Shown here in pieces: positions 1,262-43,151 of a stretch of 64,000 nt of DNA. The stretch comes from Closterium sp. NIES-65. Its lineage: Eukaryota; Streptophyta; Zygnematophyceae; Desmidiales; Closteriaceae. Every line of letters starts with the position of its first letter. Positions within the stretch are counted from its first letter, which is position 1. The stretch spans positions 1,240,001-1,304,000 of the forward strand of contig CANXME010000095.1 of assembly GCA_948144175.1 (NCBI GenBank). The letters are read 5' to 3'. Under the pieces are notes generated by a model that searched no databases, was not told the DNA's origin, and saw only the letters and a list, made by a program, of their open reading frames with translations. A program made the position numbers and the translations under genes.

Positions 1262-4200
1262 CTACACATGACTAGAACCTGTGTCAACAAGGCCTAACTG
1301 CACACAACACCTCTGGTGGTCACAAGGCGAAAGCGCCTTGGTGAAGATGTCTGCAGTGTTGGCCTCGGACTCCACGAACTCGAAGCGAGCCTGTCCACGT
1401 CTCTGCAACTCTCGCAGAAGAAAGTACCTGACGTGAATGTGCTTCACTCTGCTCTCCAGTCGCGGCTCACGACAGAGGAGGATCGACGCCTTGTTGTCAG
1501 TAAACAAGGTCGGTGCAGAGCTCGGCCGCTCACCAAGGTCGGCGAGCAAGAAGGTCAACCACCGCAACTCCTGTGCCGCCATGACACCAGCGTAAATCTC
1601 AGCCTCAGCTGTAGAGGTCGAGACAGAAGAGGAGCGCGTGGAACGCCAGGAAACAGCTCCAGAACCCAGACTGAAACAGTACCCCTGAGTAGACCTGTGA
1701 GTCTCAGCGTCGTCAGCGTAAGAGGAGTCACAGTGACCAGTGAGTACGACAGACTGCTGCCCTCCAAGAACTACCCCCACGCCTGATGTAGTCGCTAGGT
1801 ACTTCGCCACCCTCACAGCTGCCGTCCAGTGAACAGGACGATGTCTCCCTGGCGCAACAAAGCGCGCAAGGATGCTGAGAGGGAAGGCGAGGTCCGGGCG
1901 AGTACAAGTCATCAGGTACATGAGGCAACCCACAAGCTCTGCGTAGGGACCACTAGGCTCAAACGGCTCGTCAGGAAAGGGACCAGTGAGTCTGTGGTCA
2001 ACAGCGAGAGGTGTGCGCTGTACGGTGGAGTGCTGAAGCCCGAACCGCTGAAGGACCTGCTGCACCATGTGTGACTGTGAGAGTGTAATGGTGCGAGCGG
2101 CTCTGTCCCTGGTGATCTGCAGACCAAGGTAGTGGCGCAGCTCACCAAGATCAGTGCACGTGTGTCTCTTCTGCAGTTCGGACTTCACGTCTGCCAAAGC
2201 AACCCTGTCCGGAGTGGCGAAAACGAGGTCGTCGACGTAGACCAGAACAAAGAACGGTGTGGAGCCACGACGAACGAACAGCGACGGGTCGGCAGAAGAC
2301 GGTTGGAACCCAAGGTCAGAGAGGGTAGAACGCAGAGTGTCGTGCCACTCGCGAGGGGCCTGGCGAAGACCGTAAACAGGTCGCCTCAGCCTCCACTGGG
2401 TCCCAAGAGGGAAGGTGCTAGTGAAGGCCGAGGGACGACGCAACCAGACCTCCTCGTGTAGGCTGCCCTGAAGGAAAGCAGTGGAGAAGTCGAGAGAGTG
2501 TAACTCGTAGTCTCTCTGTGCTGCTACGTGTAGTAACACCCGAAGAGTGGTCATCTTCGGGGTAGGTGCGAAGGTCTGAAAGAAGTCAACTCCCTCGCGC
2601 TGACTGAAACCTCTAGCCACGTAGCGCGCCTTGAAGAGCGGGGGAGATCCCGGTGGCCGCTTCACCCTGTAGATCCACATGCCGTCGACTACGTTCGCCC
2701 CAGGGGGGGGAACCTCATCGACGTAGGTGCCTGTGGATCTGTAGGAGGCCATCTCTGCGTCCATGGCAGCTCTCCACTGAGAGGCCCAAGGCCATGACAC
2801 TGCCTCAGCGTAAGTGCGAGGAGTCGGAATGTCAAGGGCGTCGGGGTCACCCTCAGGGGCGAGGAGCATGGCACAGAGATGAGGGGAAGCGGCCGCCAGG
2901 AACTCTAGCTCAAACTGCCTGTCCTCTAGGGCGTCACAGCCAAGGGCAGACACACCCCCGACAGCCAGAGGATTGGTAGGAGGAGCAGCCACAAGCGTGG
3001 TGGCGTAGTCAAGGCGGCGGGTAGCGGCAAAGTCAGTAACCGCGGCAGTAAGAGCAGACACAGAGGACACAGAGGCACGAGGGTGAGTAACAAGAGAGGC
3101 GAGAACACGAGAGAGAACAGGACGGTACGTGCGGTAGTAGTCAGTGACAGGAGCAGGGAGCGACACGGTGAGGGCCGACTCAGGAGGAGACGGAAGCACA
3201 GACTGAGACGGACGAGGTGGACTGGAACAAAGTAAGGCAGTACGAAGGTCAGTGAAGGGAACAGGAGACGAGGGACGAGCACGAGGGGAGCGACGAGTAG
3301 CCCAAGAACGAGACGGAGGAGGAGAGGACAAAGGCGGAGAACTAGAGAAAACAGCGGGGGAGGAGTCAGGCGGAGGAAACGTGGGACCGTAGACAGGAGG
3401 AGAGGCGGAGGAGGGAGGAGAAGGGGAGGGGAGACCAAGGGCCCGAAGACCCGAGACAGGAGGAGGAAGTGGCTGCTGCTGCTGCTGCTGCTGCGACTGC
3501 TGCTGCTGCGGACGCGGCTGCTGCTGGGACTGCTGCTCCTGCGGGTCCAGCTGCTGCTGCTGCTCCGCCAGCCGCTGTAACTCCCTCTCCTCTCTCTCCA
3601 ACTCCAGCTGCTCGTCACGCGCACGGCGAACACGAGCCTGGTGCCTAGTCGGGTAGGGGTGGGGGGGCGGAGTAGTGTCCGAAGCAGCGGCAGCTCCAGA
3701 GTCAACCCCCGAAGAACCAGGCGCACCACCCCCAGAGGCAGCACTAACACCAGCTCCAGACCCAGGCGCACCAGAACCCGAAGCAGGCGCACCCTCACCC
3801 CCAGAGGGAGCACCCCCAGAGTCCGCGCGGCCAGCACCGGCTCCCGGACGACAAGAGTCCTCTGCACCCACCGGGTCAGCTCCAACTCCAGAACCAGAAA
3901 CTCCAGCTCCAACTCCAGCACCCCCAGAACAAGAAACTCCAGTGCCTACTCCAGCTCCACCTCCAGCTCCAACACCAGCTACAACTCCAGCACCCCCAGA
4001 ACCAGAAACCGGTACAGGAACAGGCGCAGCACCAACCTCTCGAGAGCTAGCACCAGCGGCACGCTGCGAGGAGGACTGTGGGGAGGGAGGCTGTACCGGA
4101 GGGGCTACCGAAGGAAGAGGGGTAGCCTGGGACACACCTGACGGGGCTGGGCCAGGGGGGGGAGGCTGTACCGGGGGAGCAGGAGGGGCAGCGGCAGTCA

Positions 4201-7200
4201 GGAAGAGGGGGGGAGGAGGAACCGGGAGACCTCGACTGGGGTACCTGACGTAGTACGGAGTGGACTCCTCGAAACGGACGTCACGGGAGTCAAAGAACCG
4301 GTGAGAGGGAGGGTGGTAAAAGGTGAAGTCAGAGGAGTCCTCAGGGAAACCAAGGAAGACACAGGGGACAGCACGAGGCGAGAGCTTGTCCGCGGAGGTG
4401 TCGCGGACAAGAGCCAAGCACCCCCAGACACGAAACCGCGACGCAACACCAGGGGACCCTGTCCAAAGACTGGTCGGTGAAACCTCTGGTCGAGAGACAC
4501 GTGGCCAGAGGTTCAGCTGGTGCGCGGCGTACCTGACCGCGTAGGGCCACAGAAAATGGGGGGCACAAGTGTGAGTCAGGGAGGTGCGGGCGATCTCCAT
4601 GACCAGGCCTATGCGGCGCTTAGCAACCCCATTCTGCTGTGGGGACTCTGGAAGCGTCCAGGACTGACGAATGCCCTGCTCGCGACAGAATCCAGCGAGA
4701 ATGCCGGAGCGAAACTCACCCCCACGGTCGGAGTGGAGACAGCTGACACGACGACCACGAGTGTCCACGGTGGTGAGCAACCACCTGATCAGCGTAGAAG
4801 TCACCTCAGACTTTTTCGCCAGTGGGAACACTGTGGTGTAGCGGGAGAAGTCGTCAACGACCACCAGAAAGTAACGCTCACGCTCAGGGCCTAGACGAGG
4901 GGCGGGGCCCCAGACGTCCAAGTGAAGCGTCTCAAAAGGCTCGGTGGCCGGACGAAGGGAGGAGGAGTGAGGGGTGGCGCGCAGCCTACCCTCGACGCAG
5001 GGACGACACGGCGGCGCAAGCGAAGGCGGCAGCGACGGCAAGACACGTGGGAAGCCTAGGACAAGACGCTGACTAGACATAGCACGCAGACGAGGAAGGG
5101 ACGGGTGCCCCATCCGGTGGAGCCACAGAACGGTGGGGTGGGCAAGCGACCGGCAGGAGCACGACGCAGCAACTGGAACAGACGTAGGAACCTGACATGA
5201 CACAGACACCTGGGGGGACGAAGCAACCTGGTGAGATACGGGGACCCGAACGGGGGGGGGAACCGGGGGCAGTGGCAGTAGGGGGGGCTGCTGGTGCGGC
5301 CGCTGGTGCTGCTGCTGCTGCTGCTGCTGCTGCTGCGGCTGCGGCTGCTGCTGCTGCTGCGGCTGCTGCTGCGGCGCACGCGGGCCAGTGTGAAGAGTGT
5401 AGAGACCCGAGCCCGGCTCAGCAGTAAAGGTAGCAAGAGGCTGGTAAGAGTCTCCGTCAACACACACCGCAGTCTCTCCAGAAGGCTCAAACCACACACC
5501 CACGTGCTGACTCACGAGGGGTCGCACGCCCACCAAGTTCCGGGAGAACGAGGGGACGTGAAACCCAGTGAGAGACCCGGAGGGAGCAGCAGGACACGGT
5601 AAAGTGGTAGTGTGACGGGCAGTGACTGGTCCCGTAGTGGGATCAGCCAACGCTACAGAAACAGGCGCAGGAAGTGGTGTAAGTGTCGTGCTGTCCCGGA
5701 AGAAGCAGTGGGAGGCTCCAGAGTCCAGTGTGAACGACAGCGAAGCGTCCCCTGAGGTAGTCGCTGGTCTAGAGTCTACACAAGTACCTACACTAGCAAC
5801 AGGCAACTGAGCAAGACTAGCACCAAAGCTAACAACACCAGAGTAAACAGAGTCAGAAACACTAGAGTCAACAACAGCATACATAGCATGAGGAGCACTA
5901 ATCAGATCAACTAACTGCTCAGCAGACATGCCCCACAGAGCGGAGCCGTAGCGCTGAACCAGAGGAAGCCAGTCAGGAGCAGGACCGCCAACCCCGTAGG
6001 TCAACCGGACCGTGTCAGTGAGCTGAGCAAAGCACTGACCAGGGGGGTGAGAGCGGCCACAAGGGTGGCCCCGACGAGGACCTGTCTGAACCTGGTAGGG
6101 GCAGGGAGGGTAAGCCGCACCGCGCTGGGGCTGACGCAGCCCCGACCCCGGAGCCAGCTGCTGACGCTGCTGCTGCTGAGGCTGCTGGGAGGAAAGGGGC
6201 TGCTGCTGCTGCTGAAGGTGCTGCTGACGCTGAGCCTGGTACCACGCCGCTGCTCCACCTAGCGGGGCCGGCAGTACAGGAGGCGACTGACGAGCTCGGG
6301 GGTCGCCGCCACCAGCAGGTGCAGTGGAGTCACCAGCCGCTGCACGAGGGGTCTCTCCAGACGCTGCACTCCCACCACCCCCAGTCGCAACAGCACCCCC
6401 ACTACCTCCGCTACCTCCGCCTCCACCTCCACCAGAACCACCTTTCTTGCCCCCCCTGCCGCGGGACCGCGACGCAGTCGTAACAGCAGCCGCAGTCGCG
6501 TCAGTAGCGGCAGTGGCAAGAGAGGCAGTGAAGGTGGGTAACTGCGGGACAGTGCACCCGTGGAAGAGTGGGGGGGACACAGTACCAGAGGCGGCAGCTA
6601 CCGAACGAAGGTTGCTCTCGACGTCCTTGAGTGCAGACTCAAGGACCTCGATAGTCAGCTCACTAGGGTGCTTCAGCAGAAGCGCGTCACGAACGGAGGC
6701 AAGGCGGTCAGGGAGGCTAGTGGCGATGAAATAGACAGTGATCGCCATGGTGGGAGGAAGGAGTGTAAGCTGTGCCTCAGTGCAAGCAGCGCGGTAACTA
6801 GCGTCGAGCGAGCGGAGGTGAGCGATCAAGTCAGCAGAGCGCTCAAACGAGGCAAGATCAGGAAACAGGAACGGGAGGAAAAGACGGCCAAGAGAGACAG
6901 TAGCGGGAGTAGAGTAGCGGGCCTTAATCGCAGTGAGGTACGCAGCAGCGGTGCGAACCTGAGTAAAGTGGACCTCCTCGGACTCAGGGAGGAGGCTGCT
7001 GAGTGCGATGCAGGCCGCAGCGTCACGCGACGTCCAAGCCGTCCGGTCAGCGCGCTGACGGGCAAAGCGAGCCGTAGCAGCGTCGTCAGGAGCAGGGCCT
7101 AAAGCTGTAGGCTTGGGGGGCTCAGGGAGGTCACCAGTAGCGTGTGACCAGAGGGTCTCGCCCCCCTGGACCTGACTCTCTAACAGACGGCGAGCGCGAA

Positions 7201-7267
7201 GAAGCCAGACGGAAAAGTCAAGGGGTCTACCGTCAGCGTCGAAACGAAGAACTCGCGGAGTCGCCAT
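1262..7267 (-). CDS. Ty1/copia gag-pol polyprotein, element A (open)
   Basis: A single frame of about 2001 aa encodes a complete copia polyprotein. The chosen start reads MATPRVLRFD and matches the starts of the other gag proteins here; an in-frame Met 12 codons upstream is less likely. In order: gag helical domain (about 1-240); Ser/Gly-rich and Gln-rich tracts; atypical zinc knuckle C-x13-C-x3-H-x4-C (about 388-412); protease with LDSGAS (about 510); integrase with an HHCC region and catalytic Asp in LHLDVWGP (about 780) and LHSDRGGEF (about 842); a Pro/Gly/Gln-rich linker with polyQ from CAG runs; RT with YVDDLVFA (about 1672); RNase H with CDSSYADD and TDNKAS. The integrase third acidic residue is Lys (NGVAKRR, about 877), where most relatives here have NG(I/V)AERR. 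The protein would form virus-like particles and make and integrate cDNA. The frame is intact, but integrase activity is doubtful. Confidence 0.93.
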   Translation of the reverse strand: MATPRVLRFDADGRPLDFSVWLLRARRLLESQVQGGETLWSHATGDLPEPPKPTALGPAPDDAATARFARQRADRTAWTSRDAAACIALSSLLPESEEVHFTQVRTAAAYLTAIKARYSTPATVSLGRLFLPFLFPDLASFERSADLIAHLRSLDASYRAACTEAQLTLLPPTMAITVYFIATSLPDRLASVRDALLLKHPSELTIEVLESALKDVESNLRSVAAASGTVSPPLFHGCTVPQLPTFTASLATAATDATAAAVTTASRSRGRGGKKGGSGGGGGGGSGGSGGAVATGGGGSAASGETPRAAAGDSTAPAGGGDPRARQSPPVLPAPLGGAAAWYQAQRQQHLQQQQQPLSSQQPQQQQRQQLAPGSGLRQPQRGAAYPPCPYQVQTGPRRGHPCGRSHPPGQCFAQLTDTVRLTYGVGGPAPDWLPLVQRYGSALWGMSAEQLVDLISAPHAMYAVVDSSVSDSVYSGVVSFGASLAQLPVASVGTCVDSRPATTSGDASLSFTLDSGASHCFFRDSTTLTPLPAPVSVALADPTTGPVTARHTTTLPCPAAPSGSLTGFHVPSFSRNLVGVRPLVSQHVGVWFEPSGETAVCVDGDSYQPLATFTAEPGSGLYTLHTGPRAPQQQPQQQQQPQPQQQQQQQQQHQRPHQQPPLLPLPPVPPPVRVPVSHQVASSPQVSVSCQVPTSVPVAASCSCRSLAHPTVLWLHRMGHPSLPRLRAMSSQRLVLGFPRVLPSLPPSLAPPCRPCVEGRLRATPHSSSLRPATEPFETLHLDVWGPAPRLGPERERYFLVVVDDFSRYTTVFPLAKKSEVTSTLIRWLLTTVDTRGRRVSCLHSDRGGEFRSGILAGFCREQGIRQSWTLPESPQQNGVAKRRIGLVMEIARTSLTHTCAPHFLWPYAVRYAAHQLNLWPRVSRPEVSPTSLWTGSPGVASRFRVWGCLALVRDTSADKLSPRAVPCVFLGFPEDSSDFTFYHPPSHRFFDSRDVRFEESTPYYVRYPSRGLPVPPPPLFLTAAAPPAPPVQPPPPGPAPSGVSQATPLPSVAPPVQPPSPQSSSQRAAGASSREVGAAPVPVPVSGSGGAGVVAGVGAGGGAGVGTGVSCSGGAGVGAGVSGSGVGADPVGAEDSCRPGAGAGRADSGGAPSGGEGAPASGSGAPGSGAGVSAASGGGAPGSSGVDSGAAAASDTTPPPHPYPTRHQARVRRARDEQLELEREERELQRLAEQQQQLDPQEQQSQQQPRPQQQQSQQQQQQQPLPPPVSGLRALGLPSPSPPSSASPPVYGPTFPPPDSSPAVFSSSPPLSSPPPSRSWATRRSPRARPSSPVPFTDLRTALLCSSPPRPSQSVLPSPPESALTVSLPAPVTDYYRTYRPVLSRVLASLVTHPRASVSSVSALTAAVTDFAATRRLDYATTLVAAPPTNPLAVGGVSALGCDALEDRQFELEFLAAASPHLCAMLLAPEGDPDALDIPTPRTYAEAVSWPWASQWRAAMDAEMASYRSTGTYVDEVPPPGANVVDGMWIYRVKRPPGSPPLFKARYVARGFSQREGVDFFQTFAPTPKMTTLRVLLHVAAQRDYELHSLDFSTAFLQGSLHEEVWLRRPSAFTSTFPLGTQWRLRRPVYGLRQAPREWHDTLRSTLSDLGFQPSSADPSLFVRRGSTPFFVLVYVDDLVFATPDRVALADVKSELQKRHTCTDLGELRHYLGLQITRDRAARTITLSQSHMVQQVLQRFGLQHSTVQRTPLAVDHRLTGPFPDEPFEPSGPYAELVGCLMYLMTCTRPDLAFPLSILARFVAPGRHRPVHWTAAVRVAKYLATTSGVGVVLGGQQSVVLTGHCDSSYADDAETHRSTQGYCFSLGSGAVSWRSTRSSSVSTSTAEAEIYAGVMAAQELRWLTFLLADLGERPSSAPTLFTDNKASILLCREPRLESRVKHIHVRYFLLRELQRRGQARFEFVESEANTADIFTKALSPCDHQRCCVQLGLVDTGSSHV

Positions 7268-8157
7268 AGTGAGGACTAAAGCGAACGAACAGGCGAGTAA
7301 CAACCGGGGGGGAAGAGGACTCAGTCGCAGCGGAAGAGCGGGCTAGAGCGACGGGCCAGGACGTAGGGTAGGGCAACGGGCCAGGGCCTAGGGTAGGGCG
7401 ACGGGCCAGGGCTTAGGGAGGGCAACGGGCCAGAGCCTAGGGTAGGGCGACGGGCCAGGGCGTAGGGAGGGCGACGGGCCAGGGCCTAGGGTAGGGCGAC
7501 GGGCCAGGGCCTAGGGTAGGGCGACGGGCCAGGGCCTAGGGTAGGGCGACGGGCCAGGACTTAGGGAGGGCGACGGGCCAGGGCTTAGGGTAGGGCGACG
7601 GGCCAGGGCTTAGGGCAGGGCGACGGGCCAGGGCGTAGGGCAGGGCGACGCGACGGGGGAAAGGGCGGGAGCGACGCGACGGGGCAGGGCGACGCGAAGG
7701 GACAGGGCGACGCGACGGGGCAGGGCGACGGGACGGGGCAGGGCGACGCGACTGGGTAGGGTGACGCGACGGGACAGGGCGACGGGACGGGACAGGGCGA
7801 CGGGACGGGGTAGGGCGACGCGACGGGACAGGGCGACGGGACGGGGGGGGAACAGGCGGGCATGACGCGACGGGGGGAACGGGCGCGACGCGACGGGGGG
7901 AAAGGGCGTGACGGGGGGGGGGGGGGAAAGGGCGCGACGCGACGGGGGGGGGGGGGGAAAGGGCGCGACGCGACGGGGGGGGGGGGGGGGGGGGGGGCGC
8001 TAGGCGACGGGGAGAAAGGGCGCTAAGCGACGGGGGAAAGGGCGCTAGGCTCGGTAACAACGGAACTGGTACGAACGAGAGGTAGGATCAGGCTCGGGAG
8101 GCACGAACGGAGAACGGAGGAACGGGATCCCACAGGATCCTAACCTAGCTGATACCA
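7268..8157 (-). repeat. Element A leader: minisatellite, G/C homopolymers and PBS
   Basis: Between the gag start and the 5' LTR, about ten units of 24-31 bp around the core GCGACGGGCCAGGG run from about 7340 to 7640. Related shorter units around GGGCGACGCGACGGG follow to about 7860, then long G runs (about 7908-7998). The end next to the LTR carries the minus-strand PBS TGGTATCAGCTAGG (8144-8157). The transcript leader would be very C-rich. The open frames called through this stretch are low-complexity artefacts. Confidence 0.85.
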
Positions 8158-8330
8158 TGTCAGAATGAGGAATGGTGTTTCCATTGATGTTGGTTGGGGT
8201 ACATATGACAAACCCTAAATTCTGTACCCCCTAAGACAAACCTCACTACAGGCTACAACATTTGACAATGACAAACCCTAACTTCTGTACCCCCTAAGAC
8301 AAACCTCACTACAGGCTACAACAATTGACA
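8158..8330 (-). repeat. 5' LTR of element A
   Basis: This 173-bp copy matches 886-1058 with two substitutions and includes the same duplicated 63-bp core (8205-8267 and 8268-8330). GGAAG follows at 8331-8335, pairing with 881-885. Confidence 0.92.
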
Positions 8331-8335
8331 GGAAG

Positions 8336-11198
8336 CTGCTGACGCGAAATTCAATCGCGATGTAGCAGAAACCGTTGATCGTGTCGGTGCGATCGCGAGC
8401 GTCCGTCGTGCTGACGCAAACTGACAAAGTCAGAAAGGACCGAGAAAACGCCAAGGAAAGAACAATGCAAAGCACTTTCTCCCCCCCTCCAAGAAAACAC
8501 TCCAGAAAGTTTCCCGCAGCTGCGCCGAGATGAAAACCAACAAAACCAGATGTTAAGTCCCACTGAGAAAACCGTGGAGCGGAGAATTCCGGGTGAAATT
8601 GCGTCGGTGTGGAAAGTCGATGGCGAAACCAAGTAGTACGTGCCCCAAAAATCGTCGGGGACGAACCAGAAGATGTAGCCCGAAAACCGAAATTCATGTT
8701 ATCGAATACTCGAACTGAACCTGTGTTGTCTTCACGTGCTAGAATCCTGCAGTATCTTCAGCAGTTGCAGCTGGCAGCACCTGACGTGGTCAGAAATAAA
8801 TGCAGTTGCGTGGGCTGGTCGGGTGGATGGGTTTGTCGCTAGTAGAGTTGGAGCGGTTGTATCCCGGAATCCTCTGGCCGTAAAATCGGGAATGTTACGA
8901 GTGTCGTCGAAGTCGGCGATCGAAGGCGATTGGCAGCGAACGTGATAACGAGAGATGGCGAAGGTCGTCAAAGTAGTAACCGTACCGAAAATCACTCTGG
9001 TCGAATTTGCCGAATGCTGTATCCGTGTCGAATGACGTCACCACCTCCGGCGGGTTTGTCCAAACTCGCCGAACCCTTTGTCGTAATCAGCCGATGACTC
9101 CTGGGCAGATATGAAAAATTACAGCTGTTTCTCCCCCCCTCCACTGTTGCTGCTGCCACCTCCAGTTCGTCGTAAGTCGTTCGTACCCCTGAAAACATCC
9201 GTGTAGTTCCTGCGCTGTTGCCCCACGTAAATGTCGCGCGCGTTTAACCAAACGCCGAATGCTCCTCCGAAATTGTCGGCGCTCCTTGCCGGAAACCCTG
9301 TAAGTCTCACGGACAAACTCCGAAATTTTCGCTCGAATCTAACCTCGTAAATCCGCAGTTGCAGTTGCAGTTCGCCTCCGAAAACCTCGGACGTGCTATA
9401 GCCGCCCACTCGGTCACCATCAGTTTCCTTCAGTTTACCCGACCCCAGCATGTGGGTACAATCGAGAACCGGGGACTGCCATGGGTTATTCCGAGACCGA
9501 ATTTCACGGAACCTAGTGGCATCAACGCCGTTGACATCGTCGTCGAAAACTGCTTCCGCCGATGTTACTTAACAAAATAAGCCGTTTCTCCCACCAGCGC
9601 TTTGCAGATGTTTCACCGCATCGCTCGTCGCCGGTCGATAAGTTCCCGAAGCTACGACTGCTCCCATGCTCCCTTTTTTCTGAAGAATTTCCAGAGGTGT
9701 GCGTTTAAACACCGGGGGTCCTAGGCATCCTTGCCGCTGTGTTTCTTGCCAGGCAACTTCGAAAAGTGCCCTTCAGGCGAAGTCCCCCAACGACTCAACC
9801 GCACTCCAAGAAGCGAAGAAATGCCCGCAGCTTCATATTTTTTTGGTCGTTTCACCCCCCGAGAATTCCGCTTTTGTCGGAGTAGAACAGTGCCACAACT
9901 CCCCTTTTTTGTTTTTTTCTGTACAGCTGTTGAACTAGCACCATCCCAGGTGCCTTTAACCAGCGCAGGGTAGGCCCGTGTTCACCCCCGATATTCGGCC
10001 AAGTAAGTTGACTGCATGAGTCAGAACTAAAACTTGGTGGAGATGGTGAGGTTCGGGCGACGGAAGGTCACAGGCCGTTCACACCGGCTTTTAACATGCC
10101 CTTCACGCCGTTTCTCGACCCCCGCTTAGCCGTCGGGCAGTTTCTTCCCGTGTGTCCCGGCGGCCTGTACCGACTCCTCTGTAAATGTCGGGGCAGTACG
10201 TTGAACGCCGTTTAATCGTGGGTCGCTTGCAGCTGTCCCCGAAAACGACTTCTCTGGTAGGAGAAACCGCTCTCGAAACTGCCGGCTAGCTTGCAACAAC
10301 TCCAGGCACGCAGCGTCGCACGAGTCGTTTTCCGAGGTTACTGGCCCCGGTTTCCCTCGTCGCCTGCGCCCCACTTCTGCTAAGTGCGATATGGCCACTC
10401 CGCTTTTCGTTGCAGCCCGTAAGTGTCGGCGGGTCCGAAAATCCCGTCTGTCCACGTGCACTTCTGCCGAAAACGTTGATGACGCGCCCGCCAATGCAGT
10501 AAAGGCCGCTGCACTTAACAGGCCGGGCGGGACGGCAGTTGACTCCCGCATAAATCGGTCAGTCCTCGTGGCGTCTCTCCTCGTCACCAGCTTTTTCAGA
10601 CGCAAACTTCATTTGCGCCTGGCGAGTTCCCCAGCCGACTTTTTCTTCACAGCAGATCCGAAATTGTCGCCCACAGTGACGCACGTCCGTTGTCGCCAGC
10701 TGCCGAAACACATTCCGCGAGTCATACGCGCAAAATGACGACGAGCCACCGTTGTCACTTGCCGCATGAGACGGACTCCGAAATTGTCGCGCAGTTGTTG
10801 ACTCAGGTCCGACGGCGTCAACTGCCACACACGTTGACGACTCCGCGAATTTCGTGCAGGTGCCGACGCAGGTCCGCTGACGCCAGCTGCCACACGAAAC
10901 TTCTGAAATCGTCGGTAAATCGCAGCGGAAATAACTCACGTTTAACGTCGCGATAGCTACAGCTGTCCGTTGCCCGGGGGGAGGGAGGCCACGGTCGATC
11001 GCGACCGTTCGAGGCAAGGATCTGGCGGTGCTGAAGGAGTACCCGTAAAACAATGGCCGCGAGGAGCAACTAACTCGTTCTCTTGGCCGGCCTACGCAAC
11101 ACCTGGACCCCAAGACATCCTTCCTCGTCCCCCCCCCCCCCAAGGGGTATTACACTCTAAAAAGCGGGGTAGGCTAGGAAAGTAGCTCTGATACCAGG
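8336..11198 (-). other. Element C internal region, 5' part (no recognisable genes)
   Basis: About 2.9 kb without a protein I can recognise. Open frames up to roughly 190 codons occur (for example 10559-11143 minus), but none shows retroviral-type motifs. Phrases such as CCGAAATTGTCG and CAGCTGCC recur, and between about 10680 and 10910 there are three diverged copies of a block starting near GTCCG and containing CAGCTGCC, so the region looks built from decayed tandem repeats. The PBS is at 11185-11196, with two extra bases before the LTR. Confidence 0.6.
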
Positions 11199-11476
11199 TG
11201 TTATGAATGAACTTGCAGAGTGCGCAGAATATCGAATATCGAGAATGAACTGAGTACTGAGTTCACTGAATCCACAATGAAGTAACGAGGCCTAAATAGG
11301 GCAAAACCTAGCTAGGCGGGGGTTCGGGATGGGATGGCTCGGTGATGGTTGCGATTGGAGCGGAGGCCGACTCGGGAGTGGCTCGGTGCGACGAAATAGG
11401 AAGGTCAGGTTCGTCGCGCGACCCTCGGGATGGCCTCGCTAACGAGTGCCTCAGTAAGGATTTACAAATCCTTACA
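11199..11476 (-). repeat. 5' LTR of element C
   Basis: This 278-bp repeat is homologous to 341-613. The minus-strand sequence directly inside it reads CC then TGGTATCAGAGC, the initiator tRNA-Met primer-binding site. The duplication GAATG follows at 11477-11481. Confidence 0.85.
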
Positions 11477-12117: not shown

Positions 12118-12296
12118 CCACATGTCAGAATCCCAACCACTAGACCATTGGGATAAAAGGGCTTGTTAAGTAACGGGTCGGTGCGCCCATAACCCCCCAG
12201 GCCAACATGTCTGTAACCCTTCCCTAGGATCAATCGGGGATCACCGGTGGACCTCTGACACCCCCCCGCACTGGGATGCCCGAAGTGCATACACCG

Positions 12297-12354
12297 GGAT
12301 TCGAACCCGAGACCTTCGCTCTGATAACATGTCAGAATCCCAACCACTAGACCA
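12297..12354 (-). promoter_or_regulatory. tRNA-like pol III A and B boxes across the TRIM LTR/PBS junction
   Basis: On the minus strand, A box TGGTCTAGTGG (12344-12354, inside the LTR) is followed 36 nt later by B box GGTTCGAATCC (12297-12307, in the internal segment). Both fit the eukaryotic tRNA promoter consensus. The T-arm can form a 5-bp stem around TTCGAAT. The LTR end plus PBS forms an anticodon-arm-like hairpin in which TCTGA pairs with TCAGA around a 7-nt loop in the better copy. The D-arm resembles tRNA-Glu, but I cannot pair an acceptor stem, so this is not called as a functional tRNA gene. Confidence 0.65.
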
Positions 12355-12504
12355 TTGGGATAAAAGGGCTTGTTTAAGTAGCGGGTGAGTGCGCCCATAA
12401 CCCCCCAGGCAACCGTGCCTGTAACCCTTCCCTAGGATCAATCGGGGATCACCAGTGGACCTCTGACACCCCCCCGCACTGGGATGTCCGAAGTGCATAC
12501 ACCG

Positions 12505-12562
12505 GGATTCAAACCCGAGACCTTCGCTCTGATACCATGTCAGAATCCCAACCACTAGACCA
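12505..12562 (-). promoter_or_regulatory. Second tRNA-like A/B box pair in the TRIM array
   Basis: The A box is identical (12552-12562); the B box has one substitution (GGTTTGAATCC, 12505-12515). The anticodon-arm-like palindrome TCTGATACCATGTCAGA is perfect at 12528-12544. The outermost LTR at low coordinates has the A box but no internal segment, hence no B box. Confidence 0.55.
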
Positions 12563-12680
12563 TTGGGATAAAAGGGCTTGTTAAGTAGCGGGTCTGTGCG
12601 TCCATAACCCCCCAGGCCAACATGCCTGTAACCCTTCCCTAGGATCAATCGGGGATCACCAGTGGACCTCTGACACCACA

Positions 12681-17292: not shown

Positions 17293-17515
17293 TGGTTTCA
17301 GAGCAGGAGGTCCCTAAGACCTAACTCTGTGGGCCCACCGTCCTTTTTTGGGTTGCGAAGCAACCTCTTACAATCGATTTGTCCAGTTTTTTTTTTTTTC
17401 ACATTTTATTTATTTAAAATAAATTATGAAAAAAAAACTGGATCCACTAATAGCTAGCTACATAAACGGTATGTCCTCTTTAGTTCAACTATACTAACAT
17501 GGTGGTAGTAATTTA
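17293..17515 (+). other. Element F leader start, then AT-rich segment with a foldback
   Basis: The first 57 bp look like other copia leaders (GGGCCCACC motif). From about 17350 the composition turns AT-rich. A 59-bp imperfect inverted repeat (17383-17441; CCAGTTTTT against AAAAACTGG) would fold into a hairpin. The DIRS-like element begins near 17516. Confidence 0.6.
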
Positions 17516-17748: not shown

Positions 17749-17934
17749 GAGTTGCATGAGCCGTTGGAAAACGAGAGACGTGGGTGGAGGGAAATGAGCT
17801 CCAACCCACGATTTGTAGTTGGAGAAGGGCGTTTAGCGCGCTTCGACGATGCCAAAACATGCGTTACAAGCAGCTGCGCTTTCGAAATACGTAATTTTGA
17901 AAAACACTTCGTGTGTTTAAAAATTATAATATTT
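17749..17934 (-). repeat. Split direct repeat A2 (DIRS-like element)
   Basis: 186 bp identical to A1 at 23120-23305. It is separated from B1 (starting at 17938) by only three A residues. This B1/A2 joint should mirror the junction of the circular intermediate, with AAA or TTT as the likely 3-nt crossover. Confidence 0.88.
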
Positions 17935-17937
17935 AAA

Positions 17938-17987
17938 AAGCTTGCTTTCTCTTACTTATCATTTGGCATCGTTCTCATTTCAACTGG
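17938..17987 (-). repeat. Split direct repeat B1 (DIRS-like element)
   Basis: 50 bp identical to B2 (17518-17567). It overlaps the last codons of the recombinase gene by a few bases. Confidence 0.85.
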
Positions 17988-18978
17988 GGTTCTTGAGACA
18001 TGGGTAGCCGGGCTTCCGATGACGGATGAGTGCCTCTGCGTGCTGTGCTGAGGACGGGGCATGATTCAGGTCCTGCAACTGGCGGGAGGCGTTGATGAGA
18101 TGTTCGGCATTTGGCGTGACGTACATCTCCTTGGCTGCGTCACTACGCCATCGGCCCAGCCGTTTGAAGATTCTGTCTGGCACGCCGGTGTTTGCCGCGG
18201 CAGTGGCTGCACCCTTGCGAAAGGAATGAGTGCCCAGCTGTTGTTCTCCAAGTCCGATCTTCCCAAAGGCCTCTTTGCACCAGTTTCGGATTGTCGGATA
18301 CGACGGTGGCCTTGATTGGCCACCTTGGGTGGAACCATGACCGAAGGTGCGAATCAGCGGCCCCCTTGATTGCTGATCATATCCGGCGAGTCGAATGAGT
18401 CGTTGAGTGCCGCGGACAGGGCAGAACGGATCGTGTGTTGCGGCGATAGGTATCCATGTGCCTTTTCCAGCTTGGTCCGTCTTGGAGTACGGAATTAGGA
18501 TCCACATGACCTCGTCGTCAAACTGGATGTCTTGCCACTCGATGGCGACGAGGTCTGAGTATCGCAGGAATCCGGAGTACATGAGAATGGGGATGAGCCC
18601 CTTTTGGAATTCGCCGGGGTTGTCAGATCGCAGGTATCCTGCCCACATGTCACGGACTTGTTGCAGCGAGACTGGCTCCTTCACTCTCGTGGGGCGAGGA
18701 CAGTGTCGTTTCGCAAAGTCGCGTACTTGAGTGGTGAATGGTCCTGCCGTTGGGCATGCGCTCCCAGTCATGCGGTGGGCGAAGCTCACGGCTGAGCAGG
18801 TGAGTTGTACCATGGATAGGGTGGCCTTGCGTTTGATGGCGTACACCAGGTATAGTGCGAGGGTCATGTCTGCCGCGGGGAGGAATGGGAGGTCCACCTT
18901 TGCACAGAAGGCTCGAAACTTGACCCAGTATGGCTCGTACGTTTGGATCGTTGAGTCAGCACGAGACTGTGAGAGCAT
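17980..18978 (-). CDS. Tyrosine recombinase of the DIRS-like element
   Basis: A 332-aa protein starting MLSQSRADSTIQTYEPYW, typical of the SAM-like N-terminal domain of phage-integrase-type recombinases. The catalytic set is visible: Arg in YSGFLRYSDLV (about 137), His and Arg in THSFRKGAA (about 250 and 253), a following LGRW motif, and Tyr in EMYV (about 286). It should join the circular cDNA to the chromosome by site-specific recombination, replacing the DDE integrase of LTR elements. It starts about 60 bp after the RT stop on the same strand, and its 3' end runs into repeat B1. The frame is intact. Confidence 0.9.
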   Translation of the reverse strand: MLSQSRADSTIQTYEPYWVKFRAFCAKVDLPFLPAADMTLALYLVYAIKRKATLSMVQLTCSAVSFAHRMTGSACPTAGPFTTQVRDFAKRHCPRPTRVKEPVSLQQVRDMWAGYLRSDNPGEFQKGLIPILMYSGFLRYSDLVAIEWQDIQFDDEVMWILIPYSKTDQAGKGTWIPIAATHDPFCPVRGTQRLIRLAGYDQQSRGPLIRTFGHGSTQGGQSRPPSYPTIRNWCKEAFGKIGLGEQQLGTHSFRKGAATAAANTGVPDRIFKRLGRWRSDAAKEMYVTPNAEHLINASRQLQDLNHAPSSAQHAEALIRHRKPGYPCLKNPS

Positions 18979-19037
18979 CTTTAGAAGCTGTACTTGTAGC
19001 TTTGGCAGTATGTCTGCGCGAAGGAGGACGAGATGGG

Positions 19038-21062
19038 TTAGTTGAAGACCACTCGTAATGCGACGATTGTACTATGAGGCAATCCTGTGCCTGAGAAAGC
19101 GGTGCGGTGCGAGCCTACTGCTAAACATTGGCTGCCGTGCGTCAAGGGAATTTGTGCTTGGATATGCGGGGCCCAGCTAGGTGGGGAGGGTTGTAGGAGC
19201 GGCCACCAGGTTGCCCCTGGCCAATGTGGGACAACGAGGGTGAGTGAGGCGTGGGTGCGTTGTGCGTGGTGGATGACTGCTGGGATTAACTGGGGTGGCG
19301 GGAACGCGAAGCCATTCTCGGTCGACCATGAAATCGAGAATGCGTCGATTGCAGTGGCCTCCGGGTGTGGTATATTTGAGCAGAATCGTGGCAGCTGCGA
19401 GTTGTTTGGGCTTGCGAAAAGGTTGATTGAGTGGGGACCCCAACGACGATTGAGGATGCGGAACCATGGTTGTTTCAAGGAGTAATCGTCGTGGTCGATC
19501 ATTTTGGACAGCTCATCTGCATGGGAGTTTAGCTCGCGCGGGATCCATTCAACAATTAATCGAGTGCCGAGCTCCATGCACGTGCGGATGATGTCCTTGC
19601 AAGCGGTGGTGAGGTCGGGGGTGCGAGAGCCGCCTTTGCGGAGGATGAAAAAGACCCCTTGGTTGTCCACCCTCACGAGCACGTGTTTTTGCTGAACCTT
19701 GTTCGCGTACGTTCGAAGGGCCCAAAGGACGCCTTCAATTTCCCTCCGAGTGCTGGACGTCATTCGCAATGGTTCTGGCATGGCTGCGCTTGCCTCTTCG
19801 AGTTCACCAGGGAAGGTGAGAAGGGTGGCGCCCCAACTATGAGAGCTGGCGTCCACGTGAATTACCGCGTCATAACTATTCCGAACGTGGAATGGTGCGC
19901 CATTAAATTTGTCGAACTCTTCAAGCCAGAACTGCAACTCTTCAGCAACGGAGGGGGAAATGCTCAAGCTGCTTCCCCAGGATGGCGCGTCGTTAATTGC
20001 TTGTAGCATGGCATGGCTGAATGCACGCGTCGTGGCGCCGAGTGCGACGGCCATCGACGCGAGTGTGCCGGTGATTCTGGCCAGGTGGCGGACTGGAACC
20101 TGTCGGCGCGCTTTGCTTGCGTCCAGTAGGTTCCGAATGTGTGCGTGAAGTGATGCCCGTCGATCGGTGCCAATTGAGAATTGACCAGATTTGGTGTCCA
20201 ACTCGACGCCCAAGAATCGCAGATGTTGGGATGGCAGCAGCTGTGACTTTTTCGCGTTAATCACCAAGCCCGCCATCTTGAGGTCCGAAATTATATGCTG
20301 GCATGTTGCTTGTGCGTGGGCCTTGGACGTGCATAAGAACAGGATGTCGTCCACATAGGGTATCACTCGAACGCCTTGTTCACGCCAGCGCCTGGCTAGT
20401 TGTTTGATGAGCTGCGTGAAGACAAATGGTGCCGTGGCGAGGCCAAAGGGTAGTGAACGGAAGGCGTACGTACGCCCTTCAAATTCGAAGCCCAAGAATT
20501 TCCAGCAAGAGTTGTGTATGTCGATATGGTGGTATCCCGATTTGAGGTCGATGGAGAACATCCAATCTCCCATGCGTGCCAGGTCGGCCACGCGGCTTAG
20601 GCCTTCGTATTTGAATTTAGGGATGGTCAGGTGCGCGTTCACTTTTCTGAGGTCGAGGATTAGCCTGCATTTTTCTCGTTGCTCAACCACGTTGAGTGGG
20701 CTTATGCATGTGAGCTTCGCTGCTGGGGTGACCACCGCCGCGCCGGTCTCGATAAGTTCGCGAATGGCAGTGCGTGTGAACGCAGCATGCGTGTGCGCCC
20801 CGAGGTGGTTGCGCTCGTGAAACGGTTGTGGTGGGTTGTGGCTCCATGGCAGCCAGTAACCGTTAGCGATGACGGAGAGGATGAGGCTGCTAGGGCACCA
20901 CGAGCTCCACCATGCAAGGGTTGCGCGAAGCCGCCCGCGCATTTGCGTGACAGATTTGTCAGTGACGGCGAACTCGTACGGATCTCCGTCGCCTAGCGTC
21001 TCGTGTCGTGTTATCTCTGCATGTTTGCCGAGTGACAATGGCGCAGAGGTGTTAGAATGCAA
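19038..21062 (-). CDS. Reverse transcriptase-RNase H of the DIRS-like element
   Basis: A 674-aa protein. RT motifs: CRLILDLRKVN (about 132-142), FSIDLKSGYHHI with catalytic Asp (about 172), LPFGLATAPFVF (about 204-214), YVDDILFL (236-243) and FLGVELD (about 283-289). RNase H follows: VDASSHSWGATL (Asp 404), REIEGVLWAL (Glu near 441-443), VRVDNQG (Asp 466), NSHADELSK (Asp 516). A C-terminal region of about 150 residues is Trp/Pro-rich. This order and the YVDDIL type fit the DIRS order rather than copia. No methyltransferase domain is seen, which favours the PAT/Ngaro side of DIRS. Uninterrupted. Confidence 0.9.
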   Translation of the reverse strand: MHSNTSAPLSLGKHAEITRHETLGDGDPYEFAVTDKSVTQMRGRLRATLAWWSSWCPSSLILSVIANGYWLPWSHNPPQPFHERNHLGAHTHAAFTRTAIRELIETGAAVVTPAAKLTCISPLNVVEQREKCRLILDLRKVNAHLTIPKFKYEGLSRVADLARMGDWMFSIDLKSGYHHIDIHNSCWKFLGFEFEGRTYAFRSLPFGLATAPFVFTQLIKQLARRWREQGVRVIPYVDDILFLCTSKAHAQATCQHIISDLKMAGLVINAKKSQLLPSQHLRFLGVELDTKSGQFSIGTDRRASLHAHIRNLLDASKARRQVPVRHLARITGTLASMAVALGATTRAFSHAMLQAINDAPSWGSSLSISPSVAEELQFWLEEFDKFNGAPFHVRNSYDAVIHVDASSHSWGATLLTFPGELEEASAAMPEPLRMTSSTRREIEGVLWALRTYANKVQQKHVLVRVDNQGVFFILRKGGSRTPDLTTACKDIIRTCMELGTRLIVEWIPRELNSHADELSKMIDHDDYSLKQPWFRILNRRWGPHSINLFASPNNSQLPRFCSNIPHPEATAIDAFSISWSTENGFAFPPPQLIPAVIHHAQRTHASLTLVVPHWPGATWWPLLQPSPPSWAPHIQAQIPLTHGSQCLAVGSHRTAFSGTGLPHSTIVALRVVFN

Positions 21063-21798
<736 letters not shown>

Positions 21799-23001
21799 CT
21801 ACACCACGGGTGCGGGTCCTTGGCCACCATTGCCGTTCCGCGGGCAGCCACTTGCCACATGCCCCGGCTGGCCGCAGCGGAAGCATGTCCCACGGAAGCC
21901 GTGGAAGCTCCCCATAGGCGGGCCGCGCTTGGGGTTGAACGCCATGGGCCCGCGACCTCCGCCGCGGTGGGATCGAGCGTGCGCACCCTCCGCGCGATCT
22001 ATCGCTGCCACGTCGGCGACGGCTTGCTTGAACGGGCGGGAGGTAAGGAGGCTCTTCTGCTTGTACATCTTGAACCGCTTGGCGACGCGATCGTCGGTGG
22101 CGTCCTCGACTTGAAGCATGTCGTAGCGCTCCGAAATGTAGTCGAGGGCGCTCGCGACCATTTCAAGTCCGCCCGCCGCGTCGCCGCGCTGCAGTTTGTA
22201 CTCCGCGTGCTTCAGGTAGGCCCTCAGGTCCTCCAGGGGCTCCACTTTCGCTCGCACGAGCGGGTCAATGAAGTTTGCCGCCGAAAAAGTGGGGTTAGTG
22301 CAAGGGAGGGGAGGGAGATTTTCCATGGGGGGAAAATTTGTTGTGTTGTTCGGAGCCTCACCGGCGTCGTCGTCTGAGTCGTCGGAGTCGTTGTTGACTG
22401 CTGCAGCTTCAGGAGCGCTGGTAACGGCCTCCTTGTCGTGGCGGCGCGTTGATGGTCCTTTTGCTCCTTTTTCCTTTTTTGCAATGTCGTTTTTAGCCGA
22501 TGCAGATGCCGCAGGTTGTGTAGTTTCGGCGGCGATCGCGCTAGCGGGGTGCTGCTGTAACAGGGACAGGAGGGCCTTGACTTGGTCCGGGGTCAACGCC
22601 TCGGTCAAGGCCTGGTCAGCCGTCGCGTCAGACGAGGCAGCCGTACGGCGCCTCTGGCGCTGACGCGACGGCCGGCCGGAGGCGTGTGCCGCTGGCGCGT
22701 GCTCCGCGTCCGCGGCGTGTGTCGCCACGTTCGCCACTAGCGCCACAGGCGCCACTGGCGCCACAGGTGCCACTGGCGCCACAGGCGCCGAAGGGTGCTG
22801 GGGGTGCTGCTCGGCGTTTTTGTTGACTTCGAGCCCGCCGAACAGCACGTCCACGGCGGTCGGGGCGGATGTTTCGCCGTCTGCCCGGCGCTTGTTGCGA
22901 CGCTCGCCCGTCGTTTCACGGGCATTACGGTCGCTGTCGGAAATTATCAGGTCGTCGGCAACGATGTTGTTAGCACGGTTAAGCGTCGGCGTCGCAGCCA
23001 T
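21799..23001 (-). CDS. Gag of the DIRS-like element
   Basis: A 400-aa protein. The start at 23001 (MAATPTLNRANNIVADD) is chosen because the longer in-frame extension upstream runs through repeat A1 and looks non-coding. It has an Ala/Pro/Val repeat (VAPVAPVAPV, about 80-95), Lys/Arg-rich segments, a helical region around ENLPPLPCTNPTFSAANFIDPLV, and one classical zinc knuckle near the C terminus, CFRCGQPGHVASGC (C-x2-C-x4-H-x4-C, about 373-386). It should package the element RNA. This knuckle is canonical, unlike those of the copia elements around it. Confidence 0.85.
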   Translation of the reverse strand: MAATPTLNRANNIVADDLIISDSDRNARETTGERRNKRRADGETSAPTAVDVLFGGLEVNKNAEQHPQHPSAPVAPVAPVAPVAPVALVANVATHAADAEHAPAAHASGRPSRQRQRRRTAASSDATADQALTEALTPDQVKALLSLLQQHPASAIAAETTQPAASASAKNDIAKKEKGAKGPSTRRHDKEAVTSAPEAAAVNNDSDDSDDDAGEAPNNTTNFPPMENLPPLPCTNPTFSAANFIDPLVRAKVEPLEDLRAYLKHAEYKLQRGDAAGGLEMVASALDYISERYDMLQVEDATDDRVAKRFKMYKQKSLLTSRPFKQAVADVAAIDRAEGAHARSHRGGGRGPMAFNPKRGPPMGSFHGFRGTCFRCGQPGHVASGCPRNGNGGQGPAPVV

Positions 23002-23119
23002 CGTTGAGCGGTTTTGGTTAAGGATGTCGGCTAATAAAGTTGAAGGAGAAACGCCTCTAGGTAATGAGCGAGTCCTCGCCAGCTTGAGCGGTAAAACTAG
23101 AAGTGAGCTCGAGAAAATG

Positions 23120-23305
23120 GAGTTGCATGAGCCGTTGGAAAACGAGAGACGTGGGTGGAGGGAAATGAGCTCCAACCCACGATTTGTAGTTGGAGAAGGG
23201 CGTTTAGCGCGCTTCGACGATGCCAAAACATGCGTTACAAGCAGCTGCGCTTTCGAAATACGTAATTTTGAAAAACACTTCGTGTGTTTAAAAATTATAA
23301 TATTT
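23120..23305 (-). repeat. Split direct repeat A1 (5' end of DIRS-like element)
   Basis: 186 bp identical to 17749-17934. It lies about 120 bp upstream of the gag start and probably carries the promoter. Confidence 0.88.
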
Positions 23306-23690
23306 TTATGACTACGTTGTTTCCGTGATTTACTTTGTTGTGATTTACTACCGTATAACATGCACATAATATGATGGGATGAATAATGATTGGTTGGTGA
23401 TATAGATGAATATAATGACATAAAATGCATCAAGTTATGATAGAAATGATATGATAAATAATAGATGATGTGTCAAATATGATATGATAAATGATATAAA
23501 TAATGCTGACTTGTTACTGACAATTCATGATGCATATTATAATGATTAAAATGCGTGAAAGCTAACAATCCAAAAACTATGCTACCGCATCCCCTGCCTA
23601 GCATGGGGGGGAGCTAATAGCATAATCTTTGAACAATCAGCAGTCACATGAAACAATACAATCTGTGAACTCTAAAAAATTGGTCAACTC
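23306..23690. other. AT-rich non-coding DNA between the DIRS-like element and B
   Basis: Low-complexity AT-rich DNA with repeated ATGATATGATAAAT-like phrases and no coding signal. It is continuous with 31089 onward across insertion B, ending in B's duplication AACTC (23686-23690). Confidence 0.6.
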
Positions 23691-41868: not shown

Positions 41869-43151
41869 TGCTATCAGAGCAGGTCGATCCCCTGGGATCG
41901 ATCCTGTGGGTGGGCTTGCCACCTCGTTGCTTCCGCTGCAACTACTACTTCTACTCTCTGTGCCGCACGCCAGTTTTTCTTCCCGCCGTGCGCCCCGAGG
42001 CGCGCGGCGGTTTTCTGCCCGCCGTGCGCCCCGAGGCGCGCGGCGGTTTTCTGCCCGCCGTGCGCCCCGAGGCGCGCGGCGGTTTTCTGCCCGCCGTGCG
42101 CCCCGAGGCGCGCGGCGGTTCTCTGCCCGCCGTGCTCCCCAAGGCGCGCGGCGGGTTTCGGCCCCGTCACGCCGCGCGTCGCTCTCGGGAGGCGCTGCGA
42201 CGGGCGACGGGGACCCGCGCGTTGCTCTCGGGAGGCGCTGCGATGGGCGACGGGGACCCGCGCGTCCCCCCCTCCCCCCCATCGCCGCTCCTATCGGCCC
42301 CGTCGCCGCCGCCAGCGGCCCCGTCGTCGCCGCCCTTGCACGGCCCCGGCCCCGCCCCGGCCATTTCCCGTCGCCCGTCGAGGCGACCCTCGGGGGCCGG
42401 GGGGCGGGCGCCGCCCCTTCTGCCACCTGTTTTGGCGCCCTGGGAGGCCGCGCATCGGTCCCCCCCCCCCCCTCCCTCTCCCCCCCGTAACCTCCCTACC
42501 CGCCATCCCGCCCTGCCCTGTGTTAGGGTTTGGGGGTGGCGAGTAGGGGGTGGCGGGTGTGTGGTCTCTCCTGCTCCTCCTCCTCCTCTGTCTCCCACTG
42601 CTGCAGCTACCGCTGAGGGGGGTGGGTGTGTGGGAGTCGACGGAGTGGTGCTAGGGGGTGGGGTGTGAGTGACCCTAGGGGTCCAGTAGGGGGTGTGTGT
42701 CAGGGGGGGTGAGACCGTTTGGGAAGCTGAACGGAGGTTGCCGTCGTGTCGCCAGCAGCACCTGTAGTCCGGGGAGTTGCTCCGGTAGCCCAGTCGTAGC
42801 CACCTGTGCCAGTCGCCCGTGGGTCCGTTGCTCGTCTGCGGCTACTTTAGCCGTGGGGCCAATTACTCCAGTAGTCCGGAGCGTTTCTTCGGTAGCCACT
42901 GTGCCAATGTGCCTCCTGTTGCCCGTGTGTCTGCAGCTTCAGCCGTCGCCTCCTATCTCCTCTCCTCTCACTCTCACCTCCTCCTCCTCACTTGCCCTCT
43001 GCGATAGCCTCTAGCTTTGCTCATAGTTGTTAACTTTAAACTATTGCTTCTTGAACTTGTGCTCAGAATGTGTGGTGATATTGTGATCCACCCTGAGCTT
43101 GTACTGCTTTGCTTGCTCTGCTGATTACACCCCACTTTGGCTATGGAGGTG
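41869..43151 (+). repeat. Element K internal region with 36-bp minisatellite
   Basis: About five copies of a 36-bp unit (CGCCGTGCGCCCCGAGGCGC core) run from about 41980 to 42150, followed by a longer two-copy repeat around CTCTCGGGAGGCGCTGCGA (42180-42260) and C-rich DNA. Open frames up to 266 codons in all registers result from high GC and repeats; none resembles a known protein. Confidence 0.75.

Follow-up and report, generated by a model that had tools for sequence, protein, structure and literature searches.

The window, a stretch of 64 kb of Closterium DNA, contains on its minus strand, at positions 12118–12680, a TRIM array in which LTR, internal segment, LTR, internal segment and LTR follow one another between two copies of CCACA. 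The 5′ LTR (12675–12538), the middle LTR (12468–12330), which is common to both units of the array, and the 3′ LTR (12260–12123) are 138, 139 and 138 bp long, respectively. Each has TG...CA ends, starting with TGTCAGAG and finishing with TTCTGACA. Pairwise comparison over 139 columns gives 5, 7 and 9 differences, the 5′ and 3′ LTRs differing from each other at 5 columns and the middle LTR from these two at 7 and 9. The middle LTR is therefore the most divergent one, suggesting that it probably entered by recombination or template switching. The two internal segments (12537–12469 and 12329–12261) are 69 bp each and differ from each other at three positions. The CCACA copies at 12118–12122 and 12676–12680 form the target-site duplication, and so the three LTRs, the two internal segments and the duplication reported in the initial annotation are all borne out.

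Each internal segment runs from a primer-binding site (PBS) to a run of seven G. The PBS is exact in the first segment (TGGTATCAGAGC, 12526–12537) and carries one change in the second (TGTTATCAGAGC, 12318–12329), and its primer is presumably the initiator tRNA-Met. The polypurine tracts (PPT), GGGGGGG, are located at 12469–12475 and 12261–12267. One LTR–internal–LTR unit is 346 bp long and the whole array 553 bp. The element has the features by which a TRIM is recognized: two LTRs with TG...CA ends, a total length below 1000 bp, a PBS adjoining the 5′ LTR, a PPT adjoining the 3′ LTR, a short target-site duplication and mobility at many sites. No mobility gene is found among the long reading frames of the element itself, as judged by eye.

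One minus-strand frame of the unit is free of stop codons over long stretches, and hence Closterium gene models contain translated copies of the element. A first protein search gave 97 proteins at E ≤1, including 93 at E ≤1e-3, and a second one gave 12 further proteins, 9 of them at E ≤1e-3. All 109 matching proteins (P0121–P0229) belong to Closterium NIES-53 or NIES-54, a count that is a lower bound given the length limits of the search. The copies are read from gene-model proteins and not from DNA, and copies with stop codons are missed, so that they represent a biased sample of the family. Three proteins with shorter-looking units (P0177, P0220 and P0223) were not considered, since a GT within the PBS or the LTR may have served as a splice site in the gene models. 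Many of the translated TRIM pieces in the proteins begin right after the TATCAG of the PBS, as if it were used as a splice acceptor. The TGT-for-TGG variant of the PBS seen at 12318–12329 recurs in P0124, P0125, P0127, P0130 and P0137 (C for W), which is odd for a site that is usually recopied from the tRNA primer. In a second subfamily, represented by P0183, P0208 and P0218, the middle of the internal segment differs, whereas the part from the PBS to the B box and the PPT are kept; P0218 has one changed residue in the B box. Exact DNA patterns from the element have no match in viral contigs or in plasmids.

The A-box part, the LTR end, the PBS and the B-box part are contiguous at 34 junctions in 30 of the 109 proteins. 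The LTR end is followed by 43 different strings, about six of which (WYKSGLGF, WRVRLGGY, WRTDPLLT, WYRAGPS, VLRRVRLG and GRCRCAFA) are apparently internal or spliced continuations. A 5-bp target-site duplication fits, at the codon level, 6 of 7 relatives chosen by eye for readable outer ends on both sides, P0132 being the one that does not fit, compared with 2 of 42 mispaired flanks. Duplications of 3, 4 and 6 bp fit 1, 2 and 1 of the seven, respectively. P0185, which starts inside the LTR, and P0192, the left side of which resembles the internal segment, had at first been left out by eye; neither fits a 5-bp duplication, and the count becomes 6 of 9 with both included. Two host contexts are also found uninterrupted. 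DPDALDIPTP occurs in 27 of the 229 fetched proteins, none of which contains the element motif by search pattern, and ALAPGDH occurs in 9 of the 229, including P0175, in which the element is inserted elsewhere. These observations bear on the explanation that a single LTR element has inserted into a tRNA pseudogene, or that the locus is a plain tandem satellite. The tandem arrangement of the element would agree with such an origin, but the same junction recurs in 30 of 109 proteins, the LTR ends sharply and is followed by differing flanks, and the copies are accompanied by duplications of 5 bp. This explanation, of which the pseudogene version had been foreseen in the initial annotation, is refuted in practice by the flanks with their duplications and by the recurrent junction, and we regard it as extremely improbable.

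The A box TGGTCTAGTGG, which the initial annotation had placed in the LTR, is identical in all three LTRs of the array (12552–12562, 12344–12354 and 12137–12147). The B box GGTTCGAATCC, which had been placed in the internal segment, is exact in only one of the two segments (12297–12307), and the other segment reads GGTTTGAATCC, with one change, at 12505–12515. There is no further B box elsewhere in the window, and GGTTCGANNC has no other occurrence in the 64 kb on either strand. The A and B boxes are separated by 36 nt. When first-order Markov sequences were searched on both strands with A- and B-box patterns of our own choice, 11 of 200,000 contained an exact pair 25–45 nt apart, and 109 of 200,000 contained a pair when the B pattern was looser. 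The tRNA-gene-like spacing of the boxes is consistent with the earlier description.

The similarity to a tRNA extends beyond the boxes. The tRNA strings used for comparison come from papers on mammals and are not Closterium tRNAs; we take the longer 5′ string to be tRNA Glu-TTC, and the label of the 3′ string is likewise our assumption. The LTR stretch TCCCAATGGTCTAGTGGTTGGGATTC is identical to the 5′ string printed in PMC12025293 in 24 of 27 columns and to the string labelled Glu-CTC in PMC10879880 in 19 of 20. This 5′ half, corresponding to tRNA nucleotides 1–27, lies at 12543–12568 in the 5′ LTR, at 12335–12360 in the middle LTR and at 12128–12153 in the 3′ LTR, the last without a 3′ half following it. 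The T-arm CGGGTTCGAATCCCGGTGT (12291–12309) is identical to the 3′ piece from PMC12025293 at 18 of 19 positions, in agreement with the T-arm claimed at the outset, and the copy in the first internal segment (12499–12517) has one C to T change. The scores of the 5′ piece, 20 and 18 for the two isoacceptor strings, were each reached in none of 20,000 simulations, and 2 of 20,000 attained the score of 17 of the 3′ piece. Scores of only 9–10, as opposed to 18–20, were obtained with four other tRNA 5′ pieces, and of 13 and 10, as opposed to 17, with two other 3′ pieces. T-arms resemble one another from tRNA to tRNA, so that it is mainly the 5′ half that identifies the isoacceptor; by these comparisons, the portion within the LTR is specifically similar to tRNA-Glu.

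Where a tRNA would have its anticodon arm, the element has, flanked by the two tRNA parts, the last five bases of the LTR (TGACA) and the PBS. A hairpin with a 5-bp stem and a 7-nt loop is predicted there, in line with the anticodon-arm-like hairpin of the initial annotation, but the folding of the whole tRNA-like stretch is no better than that of shuffled sequences (z = −0.36, 0.16 and −0.11). Detection of a tRNA in the unit failed. ARAGORN found none, and the match of the Rfam tRNA model to 12293–12355 on the minus strand scores 15.9 bits, whereas the gathering score of the model is 29. The E value of this match is 3.8 over 4227 families, which by division corresponds to about 9e-4 for the tRNA model alone. 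Such a score below the threshold is expected of a decayed tRNA. Rfam gives no gathering-level match anywhere in the window, and the stretch is not recognized as a tRNA gene.

The anatomy of the array, the tRNA similarity of its two halves, the family and the 5-bp duplications describe a non-autonomous Closterium TRIM, whose RNA is probably produced by RNA polymerase III from the tRNA-Glu-like internal promoter. The tRNA-like sequence spans the LTR/internal boundary, with nucleotides 1–27 and the A box forming the end region of the LTR, TGACA and the PBS replacing the anticodon arm, and the T-arm, which includes the B box, lying just inside the internal segment. TFIIIC would bind to the A and B boxes, and RNA polymerase III may start at CAA (12580–12578), 10–12 nt upstream of tRNA nucleotide 1. 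The transcript would then cross the internal segment and end at TTTT of the next LTR (12365–12362), giving an RNA of about 218 nt with about 10 identical nucleotides at both ends. The layout suggests a pol III transcript with terminal repeats of about 10 nt. The proposed R would lie within 12570–12580 of the 5′ LTR, from CAA to TTTT (12573–12570), and the corresponding CAA and TTTT motifs of the middle LTR (12362–12372) are the predicted end of an RNA started in the 5′ LTR. Each LTR contains a single TTTT, which immediately precedes tRNA nucleotide 1 and has CAA upstream, and these three are the only ones in the 553-bp array. In plant tRNA genes, upstream CAA motifs are described as start sites and are accompanied by downstream runs of at least four T (PMC11700998). 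A CAA at 10–12 nt upstream is at the edge of the usual 1–10 nt, and the TTTT, at positions +7 to +10 of the transcript, could cause premature termination.

The B box lies outside the LTR, and so a 3′ LTR or a solo LTR has only half of the promoter; the 3′ LTR should therefore not start transcripts into the flanking DNA. Reverse transcriptase and integrase would be supplied by a helper, and a tRNA primer would anneal to the PBS. Recombination between LTRs or template switching, both of which have been proposed for Cassandra, probably gave rise to the array. A helper with the LTR or the post-PBS sequence of the TRIM was not found in the window; the Copia elements examined there have the PBS in common with the TRIM but neither its LTR nor its post-PBS sequence. 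One minus-strand Copia element has 173-bp end repeats (886–1058 and 8158–8330) that are 98.8% alike, and it appears to be nested in another LTR element with repeats at 340–613 and 11198–11476 (95.3%). The best 120 of 5469 protein matches of the Copia polymerase at 1265–7342 on the minus strand are all from Closterium, a desmid belonging to the Zygnematophyceae. The window also holds a DIRS-like element at 17749–23305 with a perfect 186-bp direct repeat (17749–17934 and 23120–23305) and with minus-strand reading frames for a tyrosine recombinase (17983–19071), a reverse transcriptase/RNase H (19041–21110) and a zinc-knuckle protein (21802–23472).

Among A-box sites read from the proteins of the relatives, 64 of 88 fit the consensus, and the last G is lost in 19 of 88. 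Among B-box matches, 78 of 96 fit, and the 18 that do not include 3 apparently false matches. Across 96 aligned segments, codons of the A box have a mean identity of 0.87, compared with 0.89 for the LTR. For codons of the B box the value is 0.90, compared with 0.81 for the internal segment, and the overall mean is 0.86. Conservation of the A box thus does not clearly exceed the background, and that of the B box exceeds it mildly at most. Between the three LTRs of the array, 10 columns vary, all within the first 94 of 139, and no variation occurs in the last 45 bases, which begin with AACAAG and reach the end of the LTR. By simple arithmetic, the chance that all 10 fall within the first 94 columns is (94/139)^10, or about 0.02. 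The codon for TTTT is changed in 8 of 19 copies in one frame, and the two residues are kept in 104 of 111 in another frame. This pattern of conservation is compatible with function and is no proof of it.

Alternatively, the element might be an ordinary TRIM transcribed by RNA polymerase II with a tRNA relic that had been captured once and had spread by hitch-hiking, its boxes no longer driving transcription. In favour of this, the boxes are not clearly singled out by conservation, a substantial subfamily lacks the last G of the A box (19 of 88), and only one of the window's two B boxes is intact. Against it speaks the co-occurrence of the A and B boxes, the tRNA spacing, the CAA and the sole TTTT of each LTR. 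The part from the PBS to the B box is also kept across differing subfamilies (P0183 and P0208 compared with P0121, and with one change in P0218), and outside the PBS region the LTR shows no similarity in sequence to the window's Copia elements. Such a relic seems to us unlikely, though it is a serious alternative to transcription by RNA polymerase III.

The Copia leaders at 17293(+), 30951(−), 41869(+) and 50002(+), taken with the next 50 bases, carry noteworthy stretches after the PBS. These stretches, such as GGGCCCACC at 17293, 30951 and 50002 and CCTGTGGG at 41869, look complementary to what we take to be inner parts of the initiator tRNA-Met. They are reminiscent of yeast Ty1, in which there are extra contacts with the primer. 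The B-box-like stretch of the TRIM might likewise be an extended PBS, that is, the complement of the T-arm of the initiator tRNA, which is itself T-arm-like, with the A box present by chance, and the apparent complementarity of the Copia leaders to the presumed tRNA-Met would agree with this. But the TRIM stretch resembles, in the sense orientation, the T-arm of a tRNA at 18 of 19 positions, and the LTR contains the match to nucleotides 1–27 of tRNA-Glu. An extended PBS is therefore disfavoured and very improbable as the origin of the B box.

A TRIM with a promoter derived from a tRNA resembles several known systems. The initial annotation had held that a tRNA-like analogue of Cassandra may be undescribed, which does not stand, as TRIMs with tRNA-derived LTRs were described in 2024 as Helenus (PMC10886601). 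The description of Helenus by Kojima (2024, PMC10886601) has boxes A and B and mostly no functional tRNA in these LTRs, 5-bp duplications in plants and fungi, tandem arrays in the zebrafish family LTR-11_DR and, as the sole plant listed, a Selaginella member with an LTR of 120 bp and an internal part of 85 bp. The Closterium TRIM is similar to Helenus in its TRIM anatomy, its tRNA-derived sequence with A and B boxes, its 5-bp duplications and its tandem array, and each of its LTRs contains the tRNA-Glu-like nucleotides 1–27. The tRNA-derived boxes of Helenus are described as lying in the LTR, whereas in the Closterium TRIM, compared with that description, only the A box is in the LTR, the B box (12297–12307) is internal and the PBS takes the place of the anticodon arm. 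The hosts also differ, the only plant host listed for Helenus being Selaginella and that of the present element a desmid.

The Closterium TRIM shares with Cassandra a pol III-type promoter from a small-RNA gene within a TRIM, the PBS TGGTATCAGAGC and tandem arrays of single LTRs and internal domains. The RNA of Cassandra, as cited by Kojima, starts and stops inside the 5S sequence and has an R of 18 bp (PMC10886601), and for the present element we likewise propose that the RNA starts and stops in the promoter region, which would make R very short. Cassandra has 5S rRNA sequence with the promoter within each LTR, whereas the Closterium TRIM has tRNA sequence and a split promoter, and Rfam gives no 5S rRNA match in the window. 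TRIMs transcribed by RNA polymerase III are known as TRIMp3, a group for which the Closterium element is a candidate. With tRNA-derived SINEs (SINE2), the element shares a tRNA-derived pol III-type promoter, short length and lack of genes, but it differs from them in its LTRs, PBS, PPT and 5-bp duplications, which are marks of integrase-type mobility. Among the listed titles and abstract openings of open-licence papers, none describes the split layout or an element of this kind in Closterium, and the word retrotransposon is absent from the main text of a paper on the Closterium genomes (PMC10407611). What appears to be new here is the promoter split across the LTR/PBS junction, the general idea of tRNA-derived TRIM LTRs having already been published.

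The split layout leads to a tentative suggestion on its origin, which we put forward as possible but doubtful. A PBS gained in the anticodon arm may have turned a tRNA-Glu SINE-like pol III transcript into an LTR retrotransposon. The end of the LTR would then be determined by this PBS within the tRNA, the R would be the approximately 10 nt between start and terminator, and only an LTR together with an internal segment would make a complete promoter. Kojima (2024) instead explains the step between SINE and TRIM by a SINE inserting into an LTR (PMC10886601).

For the annotation of Closterium genomes, the finding raises the issue that 109 protein predictions match translated pieces of the element. 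If confirmed, transcription of this TRIM by RNA polymerase III would extend LTR elements of the tRNA type to the algae closest to land plants, reveal a promoter arrangement in which neither a 3′ LTR nor a solo LTR has the whole promoter, and offer a concrete route from SINE to TRIM.
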